From contig JABMPU010000097.1 in the NCBI GenBank assembly GCA_013203665.1, forward strand, positions 1 to 35,486: a DNA stretch of 35,486 bases, in the 5' to 3' direction. The stretch's first letter is position 1. Every line of letters starts with the position of its first letter. Below the pieces are notes generated by a model. The model searched no databases. It was not told where the DNA came from and saw only the letters and a program-made list of their open reading frames with translations. The DNA comes from Armatimonadota bacterium (GTDB lineage Bacteria > Cloacimonadota > Cloacimonadia > Cloacimonadales > TCS61). The position numbers and the translations under genes were made by a program. Shown piece after piece: positions 12,026-35,486 of this stretch.

Positions 12026-14077
12026 ATGAAACCAGAACTTCTTCTCCCTGTCGGTACTACAGAATCATTTTATGCCGCTATAGAAGGCGGAGCAGAAGCT
12101 GTTTACCTGGGTTTGAGAAAATTTAATGCACGAGGAAGAGCAGCAAATTTCACCATCAATCAATTACAATCTATTTTGAAAGAATCAGAAAAAAAGAAGA
12201 TAAAGGTTTTTTTTACACTCAATACTCTTATCAAAAATTCTGAACTTCCCGAATTACTTGATACTCTCTTTATACTATCCCAAACAACAATTTCAGCAAT
12301 CATAATTCAAGATTGGGGAGTTTTTTATTTGATCAAAAAATACTTTCCAAAACTCAAAATTCATGCCAGCACCCAGATGAAAACACATAATTCTATTTGT
12401 GCAGATTATCTTTATGAAAAAGAATTTGAACGAATTATTATGGCTCGGGAACTGACTTTTTCTGAACTAAAAAAAATAAGCAGAAAAACAGGAATTGAGC
12501 TGGAAATCTTCGCTCATGGAGCTTTATGTTATTCCTTTTCAGGAGTGTGTCTTTTCAGTAGTTTTCTGGGAGGGATGAGTGCTAATCGTGGTTTGTGCAG
12601 ACAGCCGTGTCGTAGAATCTATCACTCTTCAGAAAAATCCGGTTATTTTTTCAGCCTGAAGGATTTGCAATTAATTGAGATTCTACCTGAAATTATGAAG
12701 CTAAATATCAAAGCAATAAAAATTGAAGGCAGGATGAGGTCTGCAGAATATGTTTATCAGGTGGCGAGAGCTTATAGAATGGTTATTGATGATCCGAACA
12801 GAATTGAGGAAGCAAAAGAAATCCTCAAATTTGATTTTGGAAGAGAAAAGACTTCATATTTTTTCGGGAATAATATTTCCAAAGCAATTGCTGAAAATCC
12901 TTATACTGGAATTTTTATTGGAGAAATAATCAATAGTTCTGATGATAAATTTTCTTTTAAAACTCTTCACCCCCTGCAAATTAGAAATAGAATTAGAATC
13001 CTTCCGAAAAGTGGGGCTGATTCAAAAATTATTAAAATAAAGGGATTTTTATTGGAGAAAGAGGAAGGAAAAAAAGAGAAATTAGATATTGGAGAAAGAG
13101 TTACAATCAAGACTGAAAACAATTTTCAAAGAGGTGATAAGGTTTTTCTTATCGGACTTGCTGAGAAGAGATTCAAGAACCGATTTACTTTAGAAGGGAA
13201 AAGAGTGAAGTTGCACTTCCCTGAACAAAAAAGGGAAAATATTTTAGGAAAAATCGGTTCAAAACAAATCTTAAATTATGAGCAGTTATTCGTTCGCATT
13301 AATTCTCTGAGATGGCTCAGAAAGATTTTCTTTGATAAAATTGATTTTCTCATTCTAAACCTGACAAAACAGGAATGCCAGGAAATTGACTTGAGAAATC
13401 CATTCTTAAAAAGAAATATTCATAAATTGATAATAGAACTGCCAAAATTCATTTCAGAAGATGATATTGAATTTTATCAAAAAATGTGTAAAAGCTTTTA
13501 TAGAATTGGGATTACAAACTTTATGCTCAGTCATATTTCCCAGAAAAAGATTATTTCATTTTTCAAAAAAGCAAAAATTTATACAAATGAAAATGTTTAT
13601 ATTTTCAATGATTCCTCAATCCAGTTTTTAAAGGAAGAAAAAATCTGGTCTTATGTTTATCCTTTGGAAAACGATTTTCAGAACTTAACTTTTGGCAAAG
13701 ACAGGAAAGGAATTGTTCCTTTGTTTTTTGTTCCCGAACTTTTTTATTCGCGAATGCCTGTTTTTCTTAACCACCAAGACACCCCGATACGGTCATACTT
13801 TCCTACGGGGCAGGCAACAGCTCAAAGTTTTAAAGATAGAGATTTTAATTATCAAAAAATTGTGCGTGATGGAATTACGGTAATTGTTCCTGAGATTCCT
13901 GTTTCGGTTTTACAGCATAAGAATAAACTTTTCAAAGCTGGTTTTAGAAGGTTTCTCATCGATTTTTCTCATCTGAATCCATCGCAGAAAACGTTTAATA
14001 GAATCCTGAAAAAATACCAGACTTCCAGCCCTGAATATCCAGGCACAATTTTCAATTTTAAAGATGGATTAAGATAA
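12026..14077 (+). CDS. U32-family protein (peptidase U32 / tRNA-rRNA hydroxylation type)
   Basis: This 683-aa protein starts with the family motif ELLLPVGTTESFYAAIEGGA followed by EAVYLG. It has the Cys cluster ALCYSFSGVC...GLCRQPCR (about residues 165-195) that binds a [4Fe-4S] cluster in related RlhA/TrhP proteins, and IKIEGRMRSAEYV. U32 proteins are annotated as peptidases, but the studied bacterial ones act in prephenate-dependent RNA hydroxylation. The specific target here cannot be told. The start is one base after ispF. Around residues 586-602 the sequence (HQDTPIRSYFPTGQATA) looks foreign: the DNA there is a palindromic repeat also found in the VCBS gene. Confidence 0.88.
   Translation: MKPELLLPVGTTESFYAAIEGGAEAVYLGLRKFNARGRAANFTINQLQSILKESEKKKIKVFFTLNTLIKNSELPELLDTLFILSQTTISAIIIQDWGVFYLIKKYFPKLKIHASTQMKTHNSICADYLYEKEFERIIMARELTFSELKKISRKTGIELEIFAHGALCYSFSGVCLFSSFLGGMSANRGLCRQPCRRIYHSSEKSGYFFSLKDLQLIEILPEIMKLNIKAIKIEGRMRSAEYVYQVARAYRMVIDDPNRIEEAKEILKFDFGREKTSYFFGNNISKAIAENPYTGIFIGEIINSSDDKFSFKTLHPLQIRNRIRILPKSGADSKIIKIKGFLLEKEEGKKEKLDIGERVTIKTENNFQRGDKVFLIGLAEKRFKNRFTLEGKRVKLHFPEQKRENILGKIGSKQILNYEQLFVRINSLRWLRKIFFDKIDFLILNLTKQECQEIDLRNPFLKRNIHKLIIELPKFISEDDIEFYQKMCKSFYRIGITNFMLSHISQKKIISFFKKAKIYTNENVYIFNDSSIQFLKEEKIWSYVYPLENDFQNLTFGKDRKGIVPLFFVPELFYSRMPVFLNHQDTPIRSYFPTGQATAQSFKDRDFNYQKIVRDGITVIVPEIPVSVLQHKNKLFKAGFRRFLIDFSHLNPSQKTFNRILKKYQTSSPEYPGTIFNFKDGLR
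13782..13817. repeat. CCCCGA-17-ACGGGGCAGGCAA repeat inside the U32 gene
   Basis: CCCCGA (13782-13787), 17 bases, then ACGGGGCAGGCAA (13805-13817). The same arrangement with the same 17-base spacing occurs in the opposite orientation at 33597-33632 within the VCBS-repeat gene. It is preceded by CCACCAAGACAC, another commonly dispersed motif. Confidence 0.8.
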
Positions 14078-15281: not shown

Positions 15282-15320
15282 TTAGTTTTCACCTCGATAG
15301 CTTTCCGAAAATTTAAGTTC

Positions 15321-15426
15321 TTTGTGACAGAAAATACATAATTTACCCTGACTTTGTGACAAGCTTTGTAAATATTACCCTTACTTTGTGATAATGTAAT
15401 AAAATTTTACCCTGACTTTGTGACAA
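15321..15426. repeat. Four direct repeats with exact 32-bp period
   Basis: TTTGTGA begins at 15321, 15353, 15385 and 15417. Three units carry the longer consensus TTACCCTGACTTTGTGACAA (TTACCC at 15343, 15375, 15407), with about 12 variable bases between them. The period equals about three helical turns, so a protein could bind all units on one face. The array lies in the spacer before the hsdM relic and TrlF-like gene. The repeats are too short and the gaps too small for CRISPR. Confidence 0.85.
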
Positions 15427-15527
15427 ACTGAGTAATTATTTTTAATAAATTTAATTGAAATAAAGTTTTTTGTTTGACAACAAAAGTGTAAAAAACCAAA
15501 TTCAGCAAGGATTTAAATATAAGTTAA

Positions 15528-15641
15528 TTTCGGATTATTGAAATAAAAAAAGAAAAAGAATTGGTAAATGCTAATAAAGAGTTAATTGAAATATTTGAGC
15601 AGAAGATAAAAGACAGAATTGCGAGAGTTTGGGGAGCATAA
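15528..15641 (+). pseudogene. C-terminal remnant of a type I methyltransferase subunit (HsdM)
   Basis: Directly before the TrlF-like ATG, a 37-codon frame ends ELVNANKELIEIFEQKIKDR then IARVWGA-stop. This closely resembles the extreme C-terminus of HsdM N6-adenine methyltransferases. Upstream it runs into a stop (TAA 15525-15527) and has no start codon, so only the tail remains. The TrlF-like gene starts one base after it and takes its ribosome site (GGGGAG) from the relic. This suggests the two were once an operon within a type I restriction-modification island. The identification rests on a short match from memory. Confidence 0.7.
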
Positions 15642-15642
15642 T

Positions 15643-18600
15643 ATGCAGAAATATCCAAAAGGTTCAGAATGGAGAAAATGGGATTTGCAAGTCCAAACAA
15701 TTACTGATGACAATTATAAATCAATAAATACATATTATGAAGAATTAAAAAAAACTTATCCAACAAAATGGGAAGAATTATGTAAAAAAGTTGGTTCAGA
15801 AGATTTAGTAATTAAGTATGATTCGAAATATTATTTTTTTTCGGACACTGTTGATAACGAAAAAAAAAGAGCAAAAAATTATGCAAATATATTTTTAACT
15901 TTTTTAGATATTTTTAATTCAGATACAGGAGCAGTTTGTATTACAGACCATAATTATGAACACCCATATTTAATAGATTCACTTTTAAAAGAATCTGTGA
16001 ATACTAAAACAAAAATTATCCCTGGAGTTGAAATAAACGTTCAAGGTATTCATTTTATTGTTTTGTTTGGAGAAATCCCTTATGAAAAAAGCTCTTATTC
16101 AGAAGGTATTAAAACTTTTTTATCAAAAATTAATATTGATAACAAAAAAACAAATAGTAAATTAACAGTAAGTGATAAAAGCTATACAGATGTAATTGAT
16201 GAAATAAACACTATTGGTGCTATATTTATTTATCCACATTGTAATTCGACTAAAGGTCTTTTTCAAGAAAGAGGAAAGACTGATAGAACTCACCTTGCAG
16301 ATCAATTTAATTATGTGGATTTTAATATTTTACAATCTAAAAATAATTCCTCAGTAACAAAAACAGAAGAATATATTTTAGGAAATGATCAATTGAAATC
16401 AAATTTTGCATTTACTCTTGGTAGTGACGCGAGATCATTAATAGATACTTTCAAACCTGACAAATCAGGAAATTTCTGTTGGATAAAAGTCGATCCTACA
16501 TTTGAGGGTTTAAAGCAAATAATTTATGAACCGGAAGATAGAGTATTTATTGGTAAGAAACCTGAATTACTTGTAAGAGTAATTTCAAATAGAACAAGAT
16601 TTATCAAAAGTATTGAAGTAATACACGAAGAAGGATATGATGAAAGTAAAGGGATTTGGTTTAAAAATATTAAAGTCCCAATCAATTATGGGATGGTCGC
16701 TATAATTGGAAATAAAGGTAGTGGTAAAAGTGCGTTGACTGATATAATTGGATTATGTGGAAATTCACATCATTATAATGATTTTTCTTTTTTAAATAAA
16801 AAACGTTTTTTAAAAAATAATTTAGCAAGACATTTCAAAGCAAATTTAGAATGGGCAAGTGGAGAAATTACACCTAAAAATTTACTTTCTGATGTAGATT
16901 ATAATGCACCAGAGAGAATTCGCTATTTACCTCAAAATTTCTTTGAAAGACTAACAAATAATCTTGATAATTACGATTTCCAAAAAACACTTGAAGATAT
17001 TGTATTTTCATATTTACCAGAAGTAGAAAAATTAGGCAAAAACTCTTTTGAAGAATTAATAAGATATAAAAAGGAAGGCATCAATAAAGATGTTGAATTA
17101 ATAATTGATGAAATAGATAAGATTAATGAAGAATTAATAGAACTTGAAAATAAAATGCATCCTGCCTATAAGGACAAACTTGTCAAAGAATTAGCGATTA
17201 AGAAAAAGGAATTAGAAGAACATTTAAAAAATAAGCCACCCGAAGTAAAAAACCCTGAACTTGATAAAGACACGCAAGAATATAATAAGGAAATATCAGA
17301 CCAAATCAACGACAAAAATAAGATAATTGAAGAATTAATTTCAAATATTTCACAAAAAAAAGATAGAGTAGTTATATTAAAACAAGAAATTGAAGAATTA
17401 GACGTTTTTAATCGTGATTTTGTACGTTTTGAAAATGAAATTAAAACATTTCTATCTACAAAAAAAGAAGCATTAAAAAAATACAATTTAAATGTAAACA
17501 AGCTTTTAAAATATGAGATAGATTTATCAGAACTAAATAAAGTTATTGAGAAAAAGAAAAAAGAATTTAAGGATACATCAAAGGTAGTATTATCCGCAAA
17601 TGAAATTGAAACTAAATACTCGTTAGAGGAACGAACTCAACTAATTTTAAATAGTTTAATCGTAAAATTAGATGTATTAGAAAAAGATATAGCGAAACTA
17701 AAAGGGAAATTATCCGAACCTTATAAGAAATATCAAGATTATTTGGAAAATCTAAAAAAATGGGAAAATAATAAACTGTCTATTGAAGGGAAAGAAGATT
17801 TACCTCAAACTATAAATTGGTATAAAAATGAAATAAAATACATTGATAATGAGCTACTTATATTAATTAACAAAAAAAGAGAATTACATATAGAAAAAGC
17901 AATAGATATTCTTAACAAGAAATTAGAACTTCTTGATATTTACAACAAATTAAAAACATCTGTAGATGGTGAAATCAACGATTATAAACAAATACTTGGA
18001 GACTACGATATCAATATTGATGTTGCATTAAAATTGATGACTAATTTTATTAAAGAGTTTTTATCTTATATTAACCAAAACAAAAAAGGGTCATTTTTTC
18101 AAATAGATGATGGTAGAAAAAGAATTGAAGAATTAATAACAAGTTATAATATTCAGTCAAAAGAAGGAATTACAGAATTTTTAAAAGCTATTATAAATAA
18201 TTTAGAGAATGACAAAAGAACAAAATTTAATAATGAATCTCGTTATATAAGCGAACAAATAAATGATAACAAACTACCTTCTTTTTACAATTATTTATTC
18301 TCAATTAGTTATTTAGAACCTTCTTACGAATTAAAATTAGGAGATAAACAATTAACAGAACTTTCACCCGGTGAAAAAGGAGCAATGCTAATTGTTTTCT
18401 ATTTAATGTTATACAAGGATAACATTCCTTTAATAATTGATCAGCCAGAAGAAAATTTAGATAATGAAAGCATTTACAAAATTCTTGTTCATTTTATTAG
18501 AGAGACAAAGAAAAGACGACAAGTTATTATAATAACGCATAATCCTAATTTGGCAATTGTAGGAGATGCTGAACAAATTATTTATGTAACAATTGATAAG

Positions 18601-18729
18601 AAAAATAAAAATAAATTTAGTTATAATTCTGGTTCAATTGAAAATCCAGTAATAAACAAACATGCTTCTGATATATTAGAAGGAACTTTAAAGGCTTTTG
18701 ATATTAGAAGATTAAAATATTATAGGTAA
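15643..18729 (+). CDS. TrlF-like PHP-domain / SMC-type ABC ATPase
   Basis: This is a 1028-aa protein. Residues about 8-290 form a PHP-type domain (WRKWDLQVQT, CITDHNYEHP, IIPGVEIN, GSDARS). Walker A GNKGSGKS is at 356-363, and a long coiled-coil region spans about 480-870. The ABC signature LSPGEKGA starts at 907, Walker B IPLIIDQPEENLD at 928-940, and the H-loop is ITH966. This is the architecture of TrlF-family AAA-like ATPases, often linked to restriction or defence loci. The usual metal-binding HxH of the first PHP motif reads QVQ, and the last motif reads DAR where DAH is common. ATG 15643 is preferred over the ORF-track TTG 15619. The gene is markedly more AT-rich and Lys/Asn-rich than its neighbours, suggesting transfer. 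Its cellular target is unknown. Confidence 0.85.
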   Translation: MQKYPKGSEWRKWDLQVQTITDDNYKSINTYYEELKKTYPTKWEELCKKVGSEDLVIKYDSKYYFFSDTVDNEKKRAKNYANIFLTFLDIFNSDTGAVCITDHNYEHPYLIDSLLKESVNTKTKIIPGVEINVQGIHFIVLFGEIPYEKSSYSEGIKTFLSKINIDNKKTNSKLTVSDKSYTDVIDEINTIGAIFIYPHCNSTKGLFQERGKTDRTHLADQFNYVDFNILQSKNNSSVTKTEEYILGNDQLKSNFAFTLGSDARSLIDTFKPDKSGNFCWIKVDPTFEGLKQIIYEPEDRVFIGKKPELLVRVISNRTRFIKSIEVIHEEGYDESKGIWFKNIKVPINYGMVAIIGNKGSGKSALTDIIGLCGNSHHYNDFSFLNKKRFLKNNLARHFKANLEWASGEITPKNLLSDVDYNAPERIRYLPQNFFERLTNNLDNYDFQKTLEDIVFSYLPEVEKLGKNSFEELIRYKKEGINKDVELIIDEIDKINEELIELENKMHPAYKDKLVKELAIKKKELEEHLKNKPPEVKNPELDKDTQEYNKEISDQINDKNKIIEELISNISQKKDRVVILKQEIEELDVFNRDFVRFENEIKTFLSTKKEALKKYNLNVNKLLKYEIDLSELNKVIEKKKKEFKDTSKVVLSANEIETKYSLEERTQLILNSLIVKLDVLEKDIAKLKGKLSEPYKKYQDYLENLKKWENNKLSIEGKEDLPQTINWYKNEIKYIDNELLILINKKRELHIEKAIDILNKKLELLDIYNKLKTSVDGEINDYKQILGDYDINIDVALKLMTNFIKEFLSYINQNKKGSFFQIDDGRKRIEELITSYNIQSKEGITEFLKAIINNLENDKRTKFNNESRYISEQINDNKLPSFYNYLFSISYLEPSYELKLGDKQLTELSPGEKGAMLIVFYLMLYKDNIPLIIDQPEENLDNESIYKILVHFIRETKKRRQVIIITHNPNLAIVGDAEQIIYVTIDKKNKNKFSYNSGSIENPVINKHASDILEGTLKAFDIRRLKYYR

Positions 18730-23011: not shown

Positions 23012-23070
23012 TATATTTTTTGGTTCCTTCTAATATTTAGTGGTTCGATATACTAAACATAAAAAATCTG

Positions 23071-23670
23071 AATATCCAACACGGAATATCCAATATCCAT
23101 TTATCACGGCGTAACGCAGCGAAGACGGAAGTATTTTTGTCGCTATCGCTTTTTTTCTTTTTCGTCGTATCAATGCTCCCCTAAAGTATTGAGATCTTTC
23201 CGAAGCTTCCGAAAAAGAATTCTTCCTGTCAAGATTCGGAAAGTTTCTCTCATTCTGAATGATTCGAAGATAGTTCAATCATCCCAACCCTGAATACTGA
23301 ACCCTGAAAGAGACTTTTTCAGGATTTTCAGGTTTTTCAATTTATGAATAAAATCAGCCTTAGATTCAGCACTTTGAGCCTCTCCGTAATATGCAGCGGA
23401 TGTTCAAGCAATCAGTTGTATTTTGGCTATGCAAAATACGAACTGCTTATATGGCTGTACCGTTTCTCAGCATTTGAAAAGAGATATGTTTGCATGCTTT
23501 TGTTTCAGGTAGTTGTTCTGAAACATTAATAATTCTAACTGCATAATCAATAAGACGATCCTGTAAATCAAACTTCTTTTCTTTTTCACTTATTTTAATT
23601 TTTCCTTCATCATCTGTCCCGTGAAATTTTTTTTTATTTCACAGGGATTGGATATTCCGTGTTGGATATT
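23071..23670. repeat. 24-bp perfect inverted repeats bracketing a 600-bp segment
   Basis: The left arm (23071-23094) begins AATATCCAACACGGAATATC. Its exact reverse complement lies at 23647-23670. Between them are a broken four-helix-bundle gene, a GTGAAAT/ATTTCAC hairpin (23621-23642), a tgaaccctgaa-type repeat (near 23288-23306) and CTTTCCGAAGCTTCCGAAA. The arms look like a dispersed repeat family in opposite orientation. Whether they define a unit is unknown. This covers most of the 713-base gap between the exporter and the next gene. Confidence 0.8.
23311..23606 (-). pseudogene. Broken four-helix-bundle (IVP-type) protein gene
   Basis: The minus strand encodes FDLQDRLIDYAVRIINVSEQ then LPETKACKHISFQMLRNGTA, the N-terminal half of the four-helix-bundle family once called 23S rRNA intervening-sequence proteins. 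A stop-containing interposed stretch of about 45-60 bases (23392-23452) follows. Then the family resumes as YYGEAQSAESKADFIHKLKN before running into repeat sequence. The interposed stretch can fold as CAGTTGTATTTTG / CAAAATACGAACTG. No start codon is evident. The gene is dead, apparently broken by a small hairpin insertion and truncated at its 3' end. Confidence 0.78.
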
Positions 23671-23724
23671 GGATATTATTTTTAACTTACCCACTCAATA
23701 CTTAAAAGAGCCCATTATATTTTA

Positions 23725-26853: not shown

Positions 26854-27030
26854 TTTCAACTGTCATTCCCGAGAAATCATTTGTTGTTTCAACCGTCTCA
26901 CTCCACTGTTGTTTCAACCGTCCCGGTTGAAACACAACGTTATCCATCAACACCGTTTCGGTGTTGCATAATACTCCGACAGGTACAGTCATCGCAAACT
27001 TTTCCTTCAACCAGGACGGTTTGAAGGAAC
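26854..27030. repeat. REP-type repeat cluster A (downstream of the transposase)
   Basis: TTTCAACCGT occurs at 26887 and 26912, with a variant at 26854. The region also has CATTCCCGAGAAATC and CACCG-tttCGGTG. A diverged copy of the longer element ends CCTTCAACC...GGTTTGAAGG (27004-27027). It lies between the macrodomain gene and the transposase stop. Confidence 0.8.
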
Positions 27031-27044
27031 ATCGATTTATTCGC

Positions 27045-27533
27045 TCACAATTCATACAAATCGAGCATTCTGATTTTACCTGCTGACGAATATTTCCAGT
27101 CTTCTGTGTAATTAACATAACCTTTTCTAACAGGATTCTCAATAATATAATTAGCCTTTTGCAGGAAGAAATTTTCTGATTCGATTATTTCAGGAAAATT
27201 CTTGGGCTGCCAAATATGAAAGCCGTCTTCTGTTTTGAATAGTTTCAAAAGATTAGGTTCGGTTTCACGAATATTTTCAATTAACTGATGGGCTGTATAA
27301 CTTTTAAAAGAATTAACAAATTTTATTGCGTCAGGTGATTGAAAAATAAGGTGAATATGGTTGAGCATGAAAACCCATGTTATAATTTTCAGATCATTAT
27401 TTTGCTGGTAATATTTTAATGCGTTTAAAAGAATATCCCAACGTTCATGCCGATCGAAGACGTAATACCATTTTTCAATAGTAAATGTCACAAAATATAT
27501 TTGATCGATTCCCGTTCTATGAATTCGTGGCAT
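27045..27533 (-). CDS. REP-associated Y1 (HUH) transposase, RAYT type
   Basis: This 162-aa protein belongs to the IS200-like single-strand transposase superfamily. It has IYFVTFTIEKWYYVFD, the HUH motif in MLNHIHLIF (His 59 and 61) and IWQPKNFPEIIESENFFLQK. It ends with NYIIENPVRKGYVNYTEDWK then YSSA, the RAYT subgroup style. RAYTs mobilise or maintain REP palindromes rather than a full insertion sequence. The catalytic Tyr is uncertain: the usual place near WQ reads NF, and Tyr 79 (SFKSYTAHQ) is a candidate. ATG 27533 with AGGAAG upstream is preferred over the TTG at 27557, which falls inside a repeat. Palindromic repeats flank it on both sides. Confidence 0.88.
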   Translation of the reverse strand: MPRIHRTGIDQIYFVTFTIEKWYYVFDRHERWDILLNALKYYQQNNDLKIITWVFMLNHIHLIFQSPDAIKFVNSFKSYTAHQLIENIRETEPNLLKLFKTEDGFHIWQPKNFPEIIESENFFLQKANYIIENPVRKGYVNYTEDWKYSSAGKIRMLDLYEL

Positions 27534-27550
27534 TGTTATCTTCCTTCGTT

Positions 27551-27683
27551 GTTTCAACCATTCTCACTTAGCTGCTGTTTCAACCGTCCGTCTCTCTGTT
27601 GTTTCAACCGTCTCGGTATTGCATAATTCTCCGACCGGGACGGTCGTCTCCAACCTTTCCTTCAACCGGAACAGTTGAAGGAA
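27551..27683. repeat. REP-type repeat cluster B (upstream of the transposase)
   Basis: TTTCAACCGT at 27578 and 27602, and TTTCAACCAT at 27552. CGACCG-gga-CGGTCG follows, then CCTTCAAC...GTTGAAGG. Bases 27630-27669 match 30717-30756 at 39 of 40 positions. Confidence 0.88.
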
Positions 27684-30576: not shown

Positions 30577-30663
30577 TATTTTACAAATTTAATTACTATT
30601 TAATTTTCTTTTTTATTTGGTTTTCCTGTCAATAAAAAAAACGAGCTGAATTTTAAAAAACTT

Positions 30664-30850
30664 CGTTGTTTCAACCGTCCCGGTGTTGCAGAGTATTCAA
30701 AACGAATTTATCATATTCCGACCGGGACGGTCGTCCCCAACCTTTCCTTCAACCGGCATCCGTCAAAAGCCGGAGTAAACGCTGCCGGTTGAAGGGGCGA
30801 TAATGGGTGGGATGTTTAAAGGGACGATACTGAGTGGGACGGTTGAAGGG
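30664..30850. repeat. REP-type repeat cluster C
   Basis: GTTGTTTCAACCGTCCCGG, then CGACCG-gga-CGGTCG (30719-30733), then a perfect 13-bp stem CCTTCAACCGGCA / TGCCGGTTGAAGG around 30746-30795. The 30717-30756 block nearly equals 27630-27669. This is the most complete copy seen. With the neighbouring array and hairpins it fills the 715-base gap between the kelch and 720-aa genes. Confidence 0.85.
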
Positions 30851-33468: not shown

Positions 33469-35486
33469 TCATTTTAGCAGAGTCATTTTCCCGGAAGATG
33501 AATATTTTCCTGATTTTAATTTGTAAAGATAAATTCCTCCTGAAACGAAATTTTTCTTCTCATCTCTTCCATCCCAAGTAATAGAAGATTGATTATTGCC
33601 TGCCCCGTAAAGAGCTTGCGACTGTTCGGGGAATATTGAATATTGTCTGATTTTCTGACCTTTAATATTATAAATTGTTATCTCTGTGTTCTTTGCGTCT
33701 TTGCGAGAGATTGTAAAAGAGATAGTTGTAGTTGGGTTAAAGGGATTAGGATAATTTCGGCAGAATATTTGAGGACTTGAAACTAGATAATTATCACTAT
33801 CAGTAATGCCAAAAGTATGAATATAGAGATAAACACCTCCGTCAAAAGCACCGACCAGGAGATCATCGAGACCATCATTATTTATATCGGCAAATGAAGG
33901 TTTGGAAGCTTCGATAACTTCGATTTCATTAAAATTGTTTGAAATCAATTCAAAATTATCGAAATTAATTTCAGATTGTTCATAATGATGTAAGCTGCCA
34001 TTTGTTTCTCCGATCAGCAGGTCTAATTTATCATTATCATCCAGATCGGTAAAAGCTGGAGCAGAACGGAAACCGACATCGATATTACAAAAATTATTTG
34101 AAATCAAAATAAATTCATTGGTTTGATCTTGTTCATAATGAAAAATCTTTCCCAAAGATTCACCGATAAGAAGGTCGAGAAAACCATCATTATCAATATC
34201 TTCAAAGATTGGAACCGCAAAAAGTCCGACATCGATATCAGCGAAATTTTCTTCCACAAGTTCAAAATCTTCGGATAAAAGATTCTCTTGTTCAAAATGA
34301 CAGATATTTCCGTCTTCATAGCCGACAAACAGATCTAATAAACCATTATTATCAAAATCTAATATTGTGGGAGCAGAATAATCACCCAATGTTCCGCTAA
34401 TCGATAAATAATCGATATAATTAAATTTTAGAGAATTCTCCGAATTCTGTTCATAATGAATTATCGAACCCATTCGTCTGCCAACCAATAAATCCAGAAG
34501 TCCATCATTATCCAAATCACAAATAGCAGGTTTGGAAGCCAGACCAATATCTATCCAACCAAGAAACTGTGTTACTCTCGGAAACAAATGATAATTATCT
34601 TCATCATATTCATAAAGCGTCAGGTTGCCGTATTCCTCACCGATAAGCAGATCTAATAATCCGTCATCATCGATATCATGGAAAACAGGAGCAGCTTGAT
34701 AGCCAACTCCATAAAAATCAATATCAGCCCATTCAAATTCATAGGAACCCGGAGAAACCTGTTCGTAACTTCTCAAATCTCCATTATATCTCCCAACTAT
34801 CAAATCGAGCAAATGATCATTATCTATATTTGTAAATGTTGGATATGTATTCCCATATTGCATGTATGGAAGAAAATCTTCTGTAATGAACTCAAAAGTA
34901 TAACTTCCTTGTTCCATCTGTTCATAATGACTCAGATTATAAAGACCTTGATTATCAAAAGGACCTTGTCCTATTATCAAATCTAATAAATTATCATCAT
35001 CGATATCAATAAAAAATGGAACTGAATTCATACCAACATCGATATTATTGAAATTTTCTGTTATCAAACTGAATTCATCAGAAAATAAAGCTGTTTGTTC
35101 AAAATGATTTATATTTCCATTTATCTCTCCCACAAATAAATCTATCAGACCATCGCTGTCTATATCATAAAAGAAGGGTGCAGAATATGGTCCGGGATTA
35201 ATATTATTGAAATTTGGAGTAACCAGGTTGAAACTGTATGTTCCCAGAGTATCCTGTTCAAAATGATTGATATTCCCGGCTTTTTCTCCCACGAACAAGT
35301 CGAGATATCCATCATTGTCAATATCAGAGAAAACGGGTTTACTGTTCATCATTCCGCTTCCCCATCCCTGTTCGGAAATCTCCAGAAAGGTCTGGCAATT
35401 TCCCGAAGAAAAGAGCAATCCGCCTACGCAAAGAAAAGCAAGAAGAATATTGCTTCCGCCTTTACATGCTTTCGGCGTGACAAGAC
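33469..35486 (-). CDS. Secreted VCBS/FG-GAP repeat protein with sorting domain (5' end outside the window)
   Basis: About ten repeats of roughly 56 residues each carry a Ca-binding-like core such as DIDNDGYLDLFVGEKAGNIN, followed by H-[YF]-EQ. This is the FG-GAP/VCBS propeller pattern of surface and adhesion-type proteins. The C-terminus is a sorting domain (NYPNPFNPTTTISF, IYNIKGQKI, GGIYLYKLKSGKYSSSGKMT). The ORF track starts at a TTG (35418), but the same frame stays open to the window edge and encodes a hydrophobic stretch (NILLAFLCVGGLLFSSGNC), probably the signal peptide. The true start is therefore probably outside. Two segments, SRKDAKNTEI and FPEQSQALYGAGNN, are encoded by dispersed repeats inserted in the sorting domain. 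Confidence 0.87.
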   Translation of the reverse strand, partial: LVTPKACKGGSNILLAFLCVGGLLFSSGNCQTFLEISEQGWGSGMMNSKPVFSDIDNDGYLDLFVGEKAGNINHFEQDTLGTYSFNLVTPNFNNINPGPYSAPFFYDIDSDGLIDLFVGEINGNINHFEQTALFSDEFSLITENFNNIDVGMNSVPFFIDIDDDNLLDLIIGQGPFDNQGLYNLSHYEQMEQGSYTFEFITEDFLPYMQYGNTYPTFTNIDNDHLLDLIVGRYNGDLRSYEQVSPGSYEFEWADIDFYGVGYQAAPVFHDIDDDGLLDLLIGEEYGNLTLYEYDEDNYHLFPRVTQFLGWIDIGLASKPAICDLDNDGLLDLLVGRRMGSIIHYEQNSENSLKFNYIDYLSISGTLGDYSAPTILDFDNNGLLDLFVGYEDGNICHFEQENLLSEDFELVEENFADIDVGLFAVPIFEDIDNDGFLDLLIGESLGKIFHYEQDQTNEFILISNNFCNIDVGFRSAPAFTDLDDNDKLDLLIGETNGSLHHYEQSEINFDNFELISNNFNEIEVIEASKPSFADINNDGLDDLLVGAFDGGVYLYIHTFGITDSDNYLVSSPQIFCRNYPNPFNPTTTISFTISRKDAKNTEITIYNIKGQKIRQYSIFPEQSQALYGAGNNQSSITWDGRDEKKNFVSGGIYLYKLKSGKYSSSGKMTLLK

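Follow-up and report, generated by a model that had tools for sequence, protein, structure and literature searches.

Among described systems, those closest to the element reported here are the Rickettsia palindromic elements (RPEs; RPE-1, RPE-4 and RPE-6), small repeats that occur both between genes and in frame within unrelated functional genes, to which they add peptides (PMC10969869; PMC3733652), with a size of about 150 bp (PMC10969869), and the REPs, for which GTAG- and CGTC-tagged superfamilies have been distinguished (Di Nocera et al. 2013) and intragenic copies have been published (PMC3733652). For the CGTC REPs, a dedicated transposase has also been reported missing (PMC3733652). MITEs, at 70-300 bp (PMC3733652), are larger.

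Like RPEs, the 33-bp element described below lies both in intergenic DNA and in frame within unrelated genes; judged against the published description of RPEs, however, it is 33 bp long, lies nested in other repeats, lacks the GTAG or CGTC tag, and occurs in Cloacimonadota as well as in further phyla. It resembles REPs in size (20-40 bp), in having putative hairpin arms beside a short unpaired constant end tag, and in its many dispersed copies, some of them intragenic, but it is tagged with CAGGC (GCCTG on the opposite strand) rather than GTAG or CGTC, its copies are mostly single, the Cloacimonadota variants fold weakly, and none of the 47 Y1 loci examined has the element beside its transposase gene. 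With the RAYT/Y1 (IS200-like) systems it shares an absence of target duplication and what seems to be a preference for a short target. Its genome also has several Y1 genes, one of which is a RAYT in the stretch analysed here, although that RAYT is flanked by a different repeat (GTTGTTTCAACCGTCCCGG), whereas classical RAYT loci are flanked by their own REP. As with MITEs, the element is non-autonomous, dispersed and able to fuse in frame to genes, yet it is shorter and has neither long terminal inverted repeats nor a target-site duplication. In-frame palindromic insertion is already known from the Rickettsia RPEs and intragenic REPs; the present element departs from these in its tag, size, nesting and hosts.

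Results

The whole stretch of 35,486 nucleotides (the window) carries one motif in two unrelated genes, as an initial annotation of its sequence had claimed: CCCCGA, 17 nucleotides and ACGGGGCAGGCAA are found at 13782-13817 (+) and 33596-33631 (-), the second being one base off the position first reported (33597-33632). Two exact matches to CCCCG-N18-ACGGGGCAGGCAA were observed in the window, against 0.00 expected from 100 dinucleotide shuffles, and a search allowing up to 3 mismatches returned the same two places and no others, with none in the shuffled windows. The two reading frames are one base apart and the same DNA yields different peptides, again as annotated. The second copy had also been described as inverted, which is true only when the + strand is read; with respect to transcription the two copies point the same way, their host genes lying on opposite strands. 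The features at the two loci are as follows.

12026-14077, + strand: gene for a U32-family protein with the insertion, 683 aa (Pfam PF01136, Peptidase_U32, E = 4.6e-63; homologue in 51/59 relatives)
13768-13782, + strand: left half of the host repeat (TAACCACCAAGACAC, family CCACAAAGACACAAAG), from orthologue comparison and 26 matches to CCACAAAGACACAAAGACAC
13783-13815, + strand: U32 copy of the 33-bp element (CCCGATACGGTCATACTTTCCTACGGGGCAGGC), adding PIRSYFPTGQA; exact 33-bp gap in orthologues L062 and L088
13816-13827, + strand: right half of the host repeat (AACAGCTCAAAG; AAAGACACTAAG in relatives), from orthologue comparison
33469-35484, - strand: FG-GAP repeat gene with a T9SS-type (Por_Secre_tail-like) C-terminal domain and the insertion, from domain matches
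33584-33597, - strand: right half of the host repeat (AATAATCAATCTTC); like sequence directly abuts AATATTCAATATTC in the empty paralogues L299-L304
33598-33630, - strand: FG-GAP copy of the 33-bp element (CCCGAACAGTCGCAAGCTCTTTACGGGGCAGGC), adding PEQSQALYGAG; exact 11-codon gap in seven paralogous domains
33631-33645, - strand: left half of the host repeat (CAATATTCAATATTC), from paralogue comparison
33682-33708, - strand: second repeat-like in-frame segment of the same domain (TCTCGCAAAGACGCAAAGAACACAGAG, SRKDAKNTE); a cousin of the element lies in such a repeat in a sister species (L206)

Filled and empty sites

For the U32 gene, we compared 30 orthologues. The insert was present in the window's own genome, G030 and G013; G001, from the window's own genus, and G023, from the genus of G030 and G013, had the host repeat without the insert (reading NHENA-KARSL and NHKDT-KSLSF, respectively), and the remaining 25 of the 30 had neither. 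Filled and empty genes differed by exactly 33 bp, placed after ..CCACAAAGACAC and before AAAG.., and filled and empty species appeared in mixed order in the U32 tree. The inserts of the window's genome and G030, which belong to different genera, were identical at 33/33 positions, with flanks (±40 codons) 66.7% identical and third positions over the gene 43.3% identical (the probability of 33 consecutive matches at 70% identity is about 8e-6). Because the inserts are identical while their flanks have diverged, one old insertion inherited by both is unlikely; the comparison indicates instead that the insert was gained recently, probably repeatedly at one position, and repeated same-position insertion, or conversion from an active family, fits these data better. 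A second site of insertion was observed in the U32 gene of G023 (KEKG[NPDTIILPYGAG]RKKEKG), in another frame and a different host sequence, where the sister genome G013 reads KEKGE-RKKENG. No sequence match to the U32 protein was found in the PDB, and none to the U32 segment in phage records. A second contig of G001 with the U32 C-terminus (L362, G001:C475) ends just past the insertion site; short-read assemblies often end at repeats, and this contig end may hide a filled allele in the population.

The C-terminal domain of the FG-GAP protein is present in at least 150 copies in its own genome. Four of these domains contain the element (reading YSIF[PEQSQALYGAG]NNQSSITWDG or much the same), and seven paralogues are empty (KGQKIKQYSIF-NNQSSIVWDG or close variants), with exactly 11 residues fewer; in the empty DNA, CAATATTCAATATTC runs straight into AATAATCAATCTTC. 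No orthologue covering the C-terminus of the window's FG-GAP gene was found in close relatives, so the empty site is defined here by paralogues. Elsewhere, an orthologous pair of such domains (L206 in G001 and L295 in the window's genome; support 99/98) differed at two element sites, with L206 carrying a 33-bp element and a 30-bp cousin, ending GGCAGGC, inside GAGAACAC|GGAGGAC, where L295 is empty. In a tree of insert-removed domains from several genomes, filled and empty copies were intermixed (8 changes, against a mean of 7.1 for shuffled labels), and the filled copies are therefore not one duplicated lineage. The homologue comparison that the initial annotation had proposed thus yielded both U32 orthologues free of the DNA and C-terminal paralogues, each missing exactly 11 residues, and the finding it had named as contrary, a homologue with the peptide segment in other DNA, was not encountered among the homologues compared.

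In other paralogues, this C-terminal loop is occupied by palindromes unrelated to the element, among them CATCCTGAGCGAAGTCGAAGGAT (CHPERSRR), for which 4 of 12 genomic copies lie within C-terminal domains that make up about 1.1% of the genome. Differing repeat-like or palindromic sequences (CATCCTGAGCGAAGTCGAAGGAT, TCCCGATTTATCGGGA and GACGAGTCCCTCGTC) fill this loop in L296, L290, L309, L305 and L312, marking it as a hotspot.

Insertion extends to further genes and to the third frame. A complete ABC exporter in G120 carries the composite VATK[TPRYGHSSLQGR]QRHKEE in that frame; exporter residues 331-373 have no P-glycoprotein counterpart, and P-glycoprotein residues 401 and 402 align on either side. 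A truncated tyrosine recombinase gene in G030 (L238, G030:C14, ORF 828-1187, - strand), which is probably decaying, has the element in frame (KT[PKQAYRLTGQA]TEIY) and apparently a second repeat insertion after the TEIY motif. As for RPEs, then, in-frame insertion was found in unrelated genes that have segment-free homologues: at two sites in U32, in the C-terminal domains and in the ABC exporter.

Anatomy, copies and nesting of the element

The dispersed repeat is 33 bp long (CCCGA-N16-TACGGGGCAGGC), with constant ends (CCCCGA and TACGGGGCAGGC), a variable middle, and a G+C content of 61%, compared with 33% in its flanks. It had been called a palindrome, and its CCCCG/CGGGG arms, present in most of 104 copies, do pair well; otherwise it is barely palindromic. 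The arms span just 5 bp, they are broken in 22 of the 104 copies and compensated in just 3, and the DNA of the Cloacimonadota variants folds no better than shuffles (z -0.06 to -1.3), for which reasons 'palindrome' describes the element poorly and its CAGGC end characterizes it better. A cousin from Patescibacteria folds well (z -3.7). In the sense orientation (CCCGA..GGGGCAGGC), all three + frames were open in 60 of 70 distinct variants; because the element is 33 bp long and usually free of stops in all three, it adds 11 residues and leaves the gene unbroken.

In the 3.4-Mb genome of the window, CGGGGCAGGCAA occurred 6 times, against 0 for a reversed control pattern, and a sequence-profile search recovered 7 strong and about 8 weaker copies, for a total of ~15, including 4 in C-terminal domains and 1 in U32. 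Matches were found in 36 of the 196 genomes of relatives searched, mainly in the window's own family (f1) and another of the same class (f12), with at least 30 copies in the same-genus genome G001. The count of copies and frames, also proposed in the initial annotation, placed the element both inside and outside genes, in three reading frames; its high copy number and mainly extragenic location are those of a REP. A pattern scan of named genomes found the element or its cousins in records of Cloacimonadota, Neomarinimicrobiota, Bacteroidota and Patescibacteria among the matches listed, which include chance ones in high-GC genomes. Two matches in long ORFs (L049 and L058) were set aside as probably due to chance at up to 4 mismatches. 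Two IMG/VR contigs (3300028193_000001 and 3300028276_000002; L404-L406) hold two genuine copies each, within CCACGAAA-type host repeats, and such viral-labelled contigs are a possible vehicle between species. A literature search returned nothing relevant for the motif string in published work or for earlier reports of such an element in Cloacimonadota, and no Rfam family matched the window.

The initial annotation requires a further correction, in that the element is nested in older repeats. The usual insertion junction is C^A or C^G, inside short-period A-rich repeats, some of which themselves lie within genes, and the left and right flanks shared a word of at least 6 bases in 45% of 84 distinct copies, compared with 22% after re-pairing the flanks, as expected if the element sits within an older repeat. 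Several different host repeats carry the same 33 bp, the composite CCACAAAGACAC[element]AAAGACAC was found at unrelated loci, and host repeats also occur free of the element (CCACAAAGACACAAAGACAC has 26 genomic matches at up to 3 mismatches, against 2 for its reversed control). In the window, intergenic host repeats without the element (AATATCCAACACGGAATATCCAAT) lie at 23053-23096 and 23640-23700; repeats of this kind carry it in G115 (L264) and G001 (L211). In L023 and L028 (G000:C62 and C161), a second palindrome, of TTTACCCCGTTGGATTTTTTTATCCAACTGGGGT type, is nested inside the loop of the 33-bp element. Target duplication was absent, filled and empty sites differing by the element alone. 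The element is thus gained or lost as a precise unit without target duplication, and has been recently active.

Discussion

Two similar stretches of DNA are insufficient on their own as the 'direct evidence' of mobility that they were first taken to be, but the reading of mobile in-frame insertion is supported by the tests above. With a probability of about 0.82, the two window segments arose independently, each by in-frame insertion of a single 33-bp mobile repeat.

Some of the same evidence could be read as the copying around of a larger composite, host repeat plus palindrome, with later precise deletion of the palindrome in some lineages, given that many copies lie within host repeats, that flanks share words above the re-paired level (45% versus 22%) and that CCACAAAGACAC[element]AAAGACAC recurs at unrelated loci. 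We regard this as improbable: bare host repeats are found as well (one family has 26 matches in the window's genome), the same element is carried by several different ones, and the G023 U32 element sits in a different host sequence, while slippage between flanking AAAGACAC words would remove 41 bp, whereas the observed gap is exactly 33 bp. Slightly less probable again is a spread without transposition, in which copies of the C-terminal domain, or the U32 alleles of different species, exchanged the segments by gene conversion or homologous recombination. The flanks of the C-terminal copies are indeed alike, the U32 inserts of the window's genome and G030 are identical, and the U32 genes of the window's genome and G001 are 88.9% identical near the site compared with 73.4% overall; yet the flanks in U32 bear no relation to those in the C-terminal domain, the reading frames are different, the identity of the two identical U32 inserts stops at the 33-bp boundary (flanks just 66.7% identical), and the domain tree does not group the filled copies together. 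That the similarity reflects chance, or a convergent coding constraint on two unrelated proteins, is scarcely credible, as shuffles predict no match, the reversed control scored 0 genome-wide where the motif scored 6, intergenic copies exist and a single stretch of DNA is translated in each of three frames; nothing was found in favour of this reading, which is refuted by the empty sites and by the copies elsewhere in the genome.

The preferred reading, insertion of a mobile repeat, suggests a REP-like mini-element that is possibly moved in trans by a Y1/RAYT transposase. It would move as a single-stranded, non-autonomous unit, with the constant CAGGC beside the CCCCG/CGGGG arms (on the other strand, GCCTG followed by the hairpin) as a putative recognition foot, and cutting and joining would be performed in trans by a RAYT-type Y1/HUH transposase. 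RAYTs are thought to act likewise on GTAG REPs, and we give trans action of a Y1/HUH transposase on the hairpin with its GCCTG foot somewhat less than even odds. Of 128 relatives, 102 have Y1 transposases, and the window's genome itself has 7 matches. None of 47 Y1 loci (20 top loci, 20 from element-rich genomes and the 7 from the window's genome, with flanks usually of about 1.5 kb) carried the element nearby, which counts against such an enzyme as the mover. The RAYT of the window (27045-27557, - strand; NCBIfam NF047646) has its own repeat family on both sides (GTTGTTTCAACCGTCCCGG.., ..CCGACCGGGACGGTCGTC; 26871-27676), of which a further copy, without a transposase, lies at 30653-30756. Tandem 32-bp repeats (CTTTGTGACA..) are present at 15320-15440, upstream of an ORF at 15619-18729. 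In-gene copies are kept in frame, at loops of variable length, with lengthened proteins predicted; purifying selection after insertion would retain within genes only such in-frame, loop-located copies.

A bolder reading, to which we give somewhat less than even odds, is that of a third, CAGGC/GCCTG-tagged, REP-like superfamily across several phyla, which may target mobile short-period repeats and repeatedly enter, and perhaps precisely leave, the same position in conserved genes. Such a two-tier system could add 10-12 residues to protein loops, whichever of the three frames is used, and several unrelated palindromes would share the secretion-type C-terminal domain (at least 150 copies per genome) as their hotspot. 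For these 33 bp, filled and empty versions of identical sites are available, in three frames, in several genes and at two places in U32; they offer a tractable natural setting in which to ask how frequently short mobile DNA makes new protein sequence and which enzyme moves such small elements.
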